A stretch of 64,000 bases of DNA from Ruminococcaceae bacterium YAD3003 (GTDB lineage: Bacteria; Bacillota; Clostridia; Saccharofermentanales; Saccharofermentanaceae). The position numbers were made by a program, and so were the translations under genes. The notes beneath the pieces are model-generated. The model had not been told where the DNA came from. It ran no database searches and was given only the letters and a program-made list of their open reading frames with translations. Below, piece after piece: positions 17,950 through 19,565 of this stretch (within the stretch, counting starts at the first letter, position 1; the number at the start of each line of letters is the position of its first letter). Location: the NCBI GenBank assembly GCA_900107185.1, contig FNPA01000012.1, positions 56,752-120,751 of the forward strand, in the 5' to 3' direction.

Positions 17950-18291
17950 ATGGATTTAGTAAAAGTAGTCGAGAGCGAGAATATTCGCAATCAGTATCCT
18001 GATGTAGAAGTCGGTGACTTCGTTAAGGCTCACCTCCTTATCAAGGAAGGCGCAAAGGAGCGTATTCAGGTTTTCGAAGGCTATGTCATCGCAAGAAAAG
18101 GCCAGGGCCTTTCAGAGACAATTACAATTCGTCGTGTATCTTATGGTATCGGCGTTGAGAGAATTCTCCCTGTTAACTCACCCAAGATCGATCACATCGA
18201 TGTTATTCGTAAGGGTAAGATCAGAAGAGCAAAGCTCTATTATCTCCGCGATCGTCAGGGCAAGGCTGCAAAGATCACACAGAAGATCTAA
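17950..18291 (+). CDS. rplS: 50S ribosomal protein L19
   Basis: A 113-residue protein starting at ATG 17950 ([13 protein letters not shown]), with GAGAGGAAAC upstream; the frame is open further 5' without a good start. Typical L19 stretches include [27 protein letters not shown] and [19 protein letters not shown]19 lies at the 30S-50S interface. It is the last gene of the operon, and a terminator starts 21 bp after the stop. Confidence 0.97.
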
Positions 18292-18312: not shown

Positions 18313-18342
18313 AAGAGGTGCTCATTTCGGGCACCTCTTTTG
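18313..18342 (+). terminator. Terminator of the ffh-rplS operon
   Basis: AAGAGGTGC (18313-18321) pairs with GCACCTCTT (18331-18339) across a 9-nt loop and is followed by a T-rich tract. Confidence 0.88.
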
Positions 18343-18366
18343 TTTTGTGTGGAAGTTGAGTTGCTT

Positions 18367-18617
18367 TACCCACTTAACTTCAAAATTCTGAACTTTAGTG
18401 GGTGAAAACATATGGTATTTCGAGTAGAGATACCCACTAATCAGTTGAAAAATAGAGTTTAGTGGGTAATATGATGCTTAAAGAAATGTTATATGGTGTC
18501 ACCAATACCCACTAATCTATATATATTCATGCTTTAGTGGGTAAAATACAGATTTGAGTAATGGCTTTCCTAAATATATTATCCACTAAAAATGTATTTT
18601 CTTGTGTTTAGTGGGTA
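18367..18617. repeat. Four regularly built 38-bp inverted-repeat units (TACCCACTAA / TTTAGTGGGTA)
   Basis: The 320-bp gap between rplS and ylqF holds no gene. It holds eight copies of one 11-bp arm in strictly alternating orientation: left arms at 18367, 18431, 18506 and 18580, right arms at 18394, 18458, 18533 and 18607. In every unit the two arm starts are exactly 27 bp apart, so each unit is exactly 38 bp (18367-18404, 18431-18468, 18506-18543, 18580-18617). The 16-nt centres are AT-rich and unrelated. Spacers between units are 26, 37 and 36 bp. The last right arm lies where a -35 of ylqF would be. The units could be RNA hairpins or paired protein sites; which is not known. Confidence 0.9.
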
Positions 18618-18665
18618 TGAGACTATTGTGATAAAATCTGTAAGAAGATTTTTCTAGGAGTCCTT

Positions 18666-19565
18666 ATGGCAGAGAAAAAGAATGACATCAACTGGTTTCC
18701 TGGGCACATGCGTAAGGCCCTTAATGAGACGGGCGAGAGACTGAAGCTCGTTGATCTTGTTTACGAGACATGTGATGCGAGAATCCCTTTCTCGAGCCGC
18801 AATCCGGAACTCGATAAGATAATCGGAGACAAGCCCAGGATCGTAATCCTGAATAAGGCTGACCTCGCTGACCCTTCGAAAACACCCCTTTGGATAAAGA
18901 GCCTCGAGGCAGAGAAGACACGTTCATGTGCGCTCGAGAGTACGAATAAAAAGGGCTTTGACAAGCTGAACCAGATTACTATGGAACTCATGAAGGATAA
19001 GCTCGAGAAGGCCGCTGAGAAGGGCAGGACCGGACGACCCGTCAGAGTCATGGTTGTCGGTGCACCTAATACCGGTAAGTCCACCATCATTAACGCTCTA
19101 GCCGGAAGAAAAGCCGCTGTTACGGGCGACAAACCTGGTGTTACCAAAGAATTTAAGTGGATCATGACCGGCGGCAGATTGGAACTCATGGATATGGCAG
19201 GCGTTTTGTGGCCGAGAATCGCCAATGCAAAGAGCGGTATATGTCTTACTGCTTTGGGTTCTGTAAAAGAAGAAGTTACCGATGTCGTTAAGGTTGCTTA
19301 TGAGACTTTGAAGATTATGTACGATATTTATCCTGAACTTCTTAAGGCCCGTTATGGTGTTGATATGGAGATTCAGGCCGAACAAGACGAGGATTATTTC
19401 CAGGATCCGTTCTACGATATCTTCCTTGCTATGGCAAAGAAGAGAGGCTGCATCTTAAGCGGCGGAAGGATCGACGAAGAGCGATTTGCCAGGCTCTTTT
19501 TGAACGATCTCAGAGAGGGAAGGACCGGGAGGATCACGTTAGAAATGCCTGAAGATTTTAAGTGA
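18666..19565 (+). CDS. ylqF: Ribosome biogenesis GTPase RbgA (YlqF)
   Basis: A 299-residue circularly permuted GTPase. The motif order is G4 (ILNKADLADP), G1 (GAPNTGKSTIINAL), G3-like (DMAG), typical of the YlqF/YawG family. The N-terminus INWFPGHMRKALNET is diagnostic. RbgA acts late in 50S assembly. It starts at ATG 18666 behind CTAGGAG and is followed 8 bp later by rnhB, the same pair order as in Bacillus. Its upstream region is the repeat array described at 18367-18617. Confidence 0.96.
   Translation: MAEKKNDINWFPGHMRKALNETGERLKLVDLVYETCDARIPFSSRNPELDKIIGDKPRIVILNKADLADPSKTPLWIKSLEAEKTRSCALESTNKKGFDKLNQITMELMKDKLEKAAEKGRTGRPVRVMVVGAPNTGKSTIINALAGRKAAVTGDKPGVTKEFKWIMTGGRLELMDMAGVLWPRIANAKSGICLTALGSVKEEVTDVVKVAYETLKIMYDIYPELLKARYGVDMEIQAEQDEDYFQDPFYDIFLAMAKKRGCILSGGRIDEERFARLFLNDLREGRTGRITLEMPEDFK

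Follow-up and report, generated by a model that had tools for sequence, protein, structure and literature searches.

Phased intergenic repeat arrays of Ruminococcaceae bacterium YAD3003 are probably paired with a predicted PD-(D/E)XK-type protein

The gap between rplS and ylqF in Ruminococcaceae bacterium YAD3003 contains an array of four inverted-repeat units, found in a 64,000-nucleotide stretch of contig FNPA01000012.1 (assembly GCA_900107185.1) that we refer to as the window. This array is one of nine short intergenic repeat arrays dispersed over the genome (G000), and in the explanation we favour, at a probability of roughly 0.7, their arms are likely read by a predicted PD-(D/E)XK-type partner protein encoded elsewhere in the same genome, an arrangement that resembles REPINs and RAYTs. 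Arrays with gene-specific arms accompany members of a large gene family, in two phyla according to the record titles, have a common geometry, are dispersed within genomes and in two sets have been copied as whole arrays. The partner protein would bind its arrays and may cut and mobilise them. A literature search, with subscription papers mostly outside its scope, found no description of such a repeat-plus-protein system, which looks undescribed and likely mobile.

As the original prediction had it, the window array consists of four 38-bp units, with arms 27 bp apart from start to start, in strictly alternating orientation and with spacers of 26, 37 and 36 bp between units. Three of the eight arms match TTTAGTGGGTA exactly and five with one mismatch, and two units of the window carry the paired pattern without any mismatch, where shuffles give an expectation of 0.00. 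The unequal spacers had been taken to be free, which they are not: the units start 64, 75 and 74 bp apart, close to 6, 7 and 7 helical turns. Across 163 units at 43 loci, the 120 successive distances clustered at 40–41 (4), 53 (14), 63–64 (50), 74–75 (39) and 95–96 bp (9), with one each at 105, 147, 201 and 206 bp. Most of these are near multiples of about 10.6 bp; those of 40–41 bp fall 1–2 bp short and that of 206 bp does not fit. The 120 distances are not independent, because some loci are orthologous copies, and a family-wide test is less affected. It used 37 arrays, after exclusion of two duplicates from sister genomes and one mixed-spacing array, and gave median periods of about 52 and 73–74 bp (exceptions 69, 79 and two of 104), with a Rayleigh R of 0.82 at 10.5 bp (p ~1e-11); at 11 bp R falls only to 0.79, which leaves the precise period loosely determined.

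The centres of the units, also described as free, are indeed variable overall, but their middle dinucleotide is constrained, being AA/TT in 126 and AT/TA in 14 of 143 distinct centres (140 together) and something else in only 3. In the 17 arrays of the 73–74 class, the A/T fraction is 0.89 at the centre of the short gap and 0.52 at that of the long gap (16 of 17 arrays, p 3e-4). Given the period test on 37 arrays and the centre test on 17, geometry and A/T dyad are common to the family while the arms differ. Within the G000 arrays differences per site amount to 0.103 in arms and 0.600 in centres, a contrast that is partly one of selection, as units were chosen by arm match (at most 5 of 18 mismatches). 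The two readings that the original prediction had offered for the units therefore fare differently. A hairpin with a length-fixed loop finds no support: the centres of all five genome sets lack an excess of symmetric pairing, 34 of the 49 imperfect units are changed in one arm only, and the units are helically phased. A selected paired protein-binding site, on the other hand, agrees with arms less variable than centres, with the strong phasing and with the candidate cognate protein family described below. Near-whole-turn spacing and the AA/TT dyad make the units look like double-stranded protein sites rather than RNA. A dimeric protein lying along a single face of the helix would fit: it would touch the major groove in the two arms, at points some three turns from each other, and the minor groove would be narrow at the dyad.

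A genome-wide search of G000 with a 36-bp core pattern (at most 3 mismatches) returned 35 units, all within nine arrays of 3–5 units, and the reversed control returned none. By mechanical calls of open reading frames (ORFs), four of the eight dispersed arrays of the window family lie between convergent and four between co-directional genes. Among 59 genomes (the own genome, 34 congeners and 24 of the order), exact ACCCAC-type units occur in G000 and G027 only, and ACC[C/G/T]ACTAA units are abundant (17–49 exact) only in G000, G027, G070, G079 and G080, with 1–3 exact units in four genomes and none in 50. Exact units of the TACC[A/G/T]ACTA type were searched for in G000 and none was found. In the species collection a scan picked out 43 stretches, of which 34 (four being single units) belong to seven assemblies: RUG13324, SIG422, RUG13559, RGIG2731, CAMYXF bin.45, a Fibrobacter sp. 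metagenome-assembled genome (MAG) from horse feces, and BH.7_4. The remaining nine are isolated units from other taxa and were treated as chance matches. The case that had been named as refuting a selected array, namely that the units are remnants of a known repeat family, proved half right: they do form a dispersed repeat family, but no described family was found and their arms are maintained.

Directly behind one of the nine window-family arrays lies a gene (G000:C11:172700-173509) for a protein of about 269 amino acids. It has no Pfam or NCBIfam family, and 29 members of its family matched no Pfam family at E 0.01. The predicted structure appears to have a PD-(D/E)XK-like fold in its C-terminal part and a helical hairpin with a beta tip in its N-terminal half. 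Across 93 alignment rows an acidic triad (E165, D196, E211) and a histidine are invariant, and where the canonical lysine of (D/E)xK is missing the alignment shows E-H-x-G. The gene is flanked by a ComEC-like gene (by NCBIfam) and a conserved gene without assignment, both kept around orthologs. Protein matches number up to 14 per genome, with 14 in G000, seven of them strong; all 59 genus genomes hold matches, and a sample of 299 genomes of the phylum has them in 16, with full-length members in four only (the own genome, G213, G286 and G308). Two phage records match the protein in part (77% and 39% of its length), as do eight plasmid records (25–44%), six of which are annotated as AAA family ATPase. 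With these partial matches, and single units on each of three viral contigs, a phage or plasmid origin was rejected.

The same pairing of gene and array is found in an assembly of goat-omasum Clostridia and in a Fibrobacter assembly, as the record titles name the organisms, and the Fibrobacter system has ACCCAC arms in common with the window family despite a protein identity of only 27–32%. Pairing was then scored for 64 distinct genes that encode 200 or more amino acids and have enough upstream sequence, taken by match rank and genome rather than at random and leaving out loci where gene finding failed, over 400 bp and at the 99% level of 960 shuffles. A phased array stands upstream of 40 of the 64 genes and downstream of 2 of 62; the arms mostly differ from gene to gene, and the last arm often lies 25–45 bp upstream of the start of the gene. 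Most of nine G000 paralogs are preceded by arms recognisable by eye, of the TTTACCCC, TGTATTC, GGATGCAT, GTAGTTTTT, CAGACATTTTTG and TTGTCGG types, two looking decayed; when these nine loci were scored, L100, L102 and L104 passed, L103, L105 and L106 failed, and L101, L108 and L109 were unscored. The arms of L102, TTACCCCAA, recur in G000 at seven places with 18 exact units in all, against none in the controls, and six of these places, which were inspected, have four or five units each, spaced 53, 51 and 53 bp. In one other family, nine full-length genes of G213, G286 and G308 have a strong upstream array in three cases and a downstream one in two; the TTAGCCTA arms of one such gene form eight exact units, three at the gene and five at three other places. 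Long PDC-S68-like hits were left out of this scoring, since the start assumed for them falls within their reading frame.

Several observations on the arrays stand by themselves. At L039:4388-4907, L062:4470-4956 and L048:1851-2351, directly adjoining arrays differ in their arms (AGTGGGTA, AGTAGGTA, ACCGACTA), as if one intergenic site gathers arrays of successive specificities. In RGIG2731, a ATACCGTA-arm array with near-even 32–33-bp spacing adjoins a ACCCACTA array (L058:2188-2759 and L063:6987-7516), and an inverted TCGTCACA array has steps of 21 and 42 bp (L027:653-869). By eye, a common AGTCTCAACTTTTT-like motif lies upstream of several paralogs (L101, L103–L106) and TTTCGAGA recurs in the spacers of several arrays, possibly as a common promoter or a second binding site.

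The locus of the partner gene shows how arms can change in place. Orthologs lie between the same neighbours in G079, G027, G070, G076, G032 and G008, and in RGIG2731 the two sides of the locus sit on two contig ends. The upstream arms are ACCCAC in G000 and G080, ACCGAC in G079 and G032, ACCTAC in G027 and G070, and GCATACC in G008; the array of G076 is degenerate, with a weak score of 3.8 against 3.4 in shuffles. A link between a stop in the gene and decay of its array was dropped, since G032, with an in-frame stop, has a clear array (6.5, shuffles at most 3.8). Conservation between the G000 protein and those of five congeners is 0.36–0.44 in the N-terminal and 0.65–0.75 in the C-terminal half, and because the former is less conserved, DNA specificity probably resides there.

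Whole arrays have been copied in two sets. In Fibrobacter, seven of 11 loci, the gene-side array among them, have the exact 95/53 layout, and non-arm positions are alike in all 21 pairs of the seven (45–74%, z 3.9–12.1), whereas the 60-bp flanks give z of -0.6 to 2.5 with one at 3.6, and agreement declines over roughly the first 10 bp outside the array. The TTACCCCAA arrays of G000 form 15 pairs, compared in both orientations, of which four reach z 5.1–8.0 (48–62%) and two 3.2–3.7, with flanks of compared pairs at 0.17–0.33; for the array beside the gene the highest value is 2.8. Because the non-arm similarity stops at the array ends, the arrays of these two sets are copied as units. Pairs of single units above the 99% null were 5 of 36 in Fibrobacter, 2 of 36 in RGIG2731, 1 of 15 in RUG13324 and 1 of 15 in the TTACCCCAA family. 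The window's own family showed no copying across loci in this unit-level test (0 of 36 pairs), which may reflect a greater age. Copies at several loci whose similarity stops at the element ends, a trait of miniature inverted-repeat transposable elements, are thus seen in Fibrobacter and the second G000 family and not in the window family, and no target-site duplications were noticed in array flanks, which were viewed by eye only.

In the mechanism that we propose, each unit would probably be bound by a dimer of the partner protein that approaches the DNA from a single face. The variable N-terminal part would read the arms, the conserved C-terminal domain would lie over the AA/TT dyad, and adjacent dimers would align along the array on one common face. 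The array at its own gene may serve autoregulation, a probable feedback on expression. Elsewhere in the genome the arrays would act as non-autonomous elements: the partner protein would assist in copying them and would keep them recognisable, as RAYTs do for REPINs.

The alternative that survives best, although we consider it unlikely, is that the proteins act as ordinary transcription factors with a dead nuclease, the arrays being their operators and the dispersed arrays a regulon. The position of arrays close to the start of their own gene would suit such factors, as would the missing catalytic lysine, the window array abutting the ylqF promoter and the location of some arrays between divergent ORFs (L028, L044, L066 and two of the six TTACCCCAA places). 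It is harder to reconcile with the convergent and co-directional gaps that hold the eight dispersed G000 arrays, with an rplS–ylqF gap that has different arms or none in congeners, with the block-wise copying in Fibrobacter and with the invariance of acidic residues and histidine. A defence or restriction-type system, in which the protein cuts foreign DNA bearing the arms while chromosomal arrays store or restrain it, is very improbable. It is favoured by the many diversified paralogs per genome and by the C-terminal domain, which in three proteins matches the end of PDC-S68, a PADLOC candidate (best E from 1e-21 to 9e-25); the match is confined to the last ~120 residues of models of about 1,200, the neighbours kept around the gene are the ComEC-like and the unassigned gene, and self sites on the chromosome would be left unexplained. 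We give even less credence to arrays that organise the chromosome as centromere-like or domain-boundary sites: the arrays are few, dispersed and phased, but congeners vary in their arms and in whether they have arrays at all, a single genome can hold several paralogous systems, and arrays are copied. An RNA element of tandem hairpins or terminator-like structures can practically be dismissed, for although each unit as read could fold with an 11-bp stem, helical phasing is meaningless for RNA, and the one-sided arm changes, the unpaired centres and the missing Rfam match also speak against it.

The surroundings of the window array are listed in Table 1. The proposed -35 (TTTAGT, 18607) and -10 (GATAAA, 18630) are where the original prediction placed them. 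In seven congeners the rplS–ylqF gap is only 112–129 bp long and, by eye, array-less; a hairpin resembling a terminator is present, as is a similar -10 (TGTG.TA.AAT in six, TATGTTAAAAT in one), so that the ylqF -10 is independent of the array. Across congeners, the gap holds other arms or none. An effect on ylqF is possible, though it is probably not the reason for the existence of the array. A test of whether gap arms are those of the own paralog was clear for G000 and G067 only, and negative for G065. Rfam covariance models at gathering thresholds found six tRNAs in the window and nothing at the array, and the earlier judgement that it is no CRISPR, rho-independent terminator or tRNA was borne out. 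A CRISPR was rejected on account of alternating inverted arms of 9–11 bp and spacings of 53, 64, 74 and 95 bp in place of constant direct repeats with equal-length spacers, and a terminator and a known RNA family were rejected as well. In G033 the gap (L078) is filled by a different, nested GGCGCCGCCTGGAA-type repeat. The gaps of G081, G002 and G064 (L089–L091) have, by eye, nested inverted repeats in the order L-L-R-R, not alternating, with arms that seem co-changed (TTATAAAAAA/TTTTTTATAA versus TTATCGGAAA/TTTCCGATAA).

Table 1. Coordinates of the array and neighbouring features in the window.
Feature	Positions	Strand	Remarks
Unit 1	18367-18404	no strand	arms 18367-18377 and 18394-18404
Unit 2	18431-18468	no strand	arms 18431-18441 and 18458-18468; 64 bp (~6 turns) past unit 1
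Unit 3	18506-18543	no strand	arms 18506-18516 and 18533-18543; 75 bp (~7 turns) past unit 2
Unit 4	18580-18617	no strand	arms 18580-18590 and 18607-18617; 74 bp (~7 turns) past unit 3
Entire array	18367-18617	no strand	251 bp; one of nine arrays in G000
rplS (50S ribosomal protein L19)	17950-18291	+	upstream neighbour; NCBIfam TIGR01024
Probable rho-independent terminator of rplS	18313-18343	+	read from sequence; similar in congeners; array lies behind it
TGTGATAAAAT, probable extended -10 of ylqF	18627-18637	+	read from sequence; similar in array-less congeners
ylqF (ribosome biogenesis GTPase)	18666-19565	+	downstream neighbour; NCBIfam TIGR03596

We lean slightly towards a broader claim, that these systems form a new class of mobile DNA, in which fast-diversifying PD-(D/E)XK-type proteins would each read, be regulated by and copy in trans a private phased array. 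If so, the single-base shifts of specificity at one locus (ACCCAC, ACCGAC, ACCTAC), with matching arms, would amount to a natural table of protein–DNA specificity, and from some 40 natural protein–site pairs a DNA recognition code could be read. The class would also account for intergenic repeats in uncharacterised gut and rumen bacteria. To our knowledge, where extragenic repeats of bacteria have a partner protein that is known, they depend on HUH transposases acting on single strands, and the present arrays would represent a second route to such partnerships.

The closest known parallel is the REPIN–RAYT system, in which extragenic inverted repeats dispersed in one genome are tied to a specific partner gene, and REPIN spacers are less conserved than REPIN ends (PMC3116915). 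Here, too, extragenic inverted repeats are dispersed, with one copy beside the partner gene. The partner differs, being PD-(D/E)XK-like by predicted fold where RAYT is a Y1/HUH tyrosine transposase; the sites are double-stranded, helically phased and mostly of 3–8 units, the repeat pair lacks hairpin pairing through the centre in the five genome sets, and several paralogous protein–array pairs coexist in one genome. From the nuclease domains of Bax1, VRR-Nuc and TnsA the family is set apart by the predicted N-terminal helical hairpin with beta tip and by the arrays that 40 of the 64 genes have of their own. The phage-defence candidate PDC-S68 resembles it in the last ~120 residues of its models and differs in its length. 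Operator, iteron and centromere arrays, such as those of lambda, plasmid iterons and sopC, are regularly spaced repeats of a protein site at a single locus; regular spacing is common to them and to the arrays described here, which are instead dispersed, copied and specific to each paralog.
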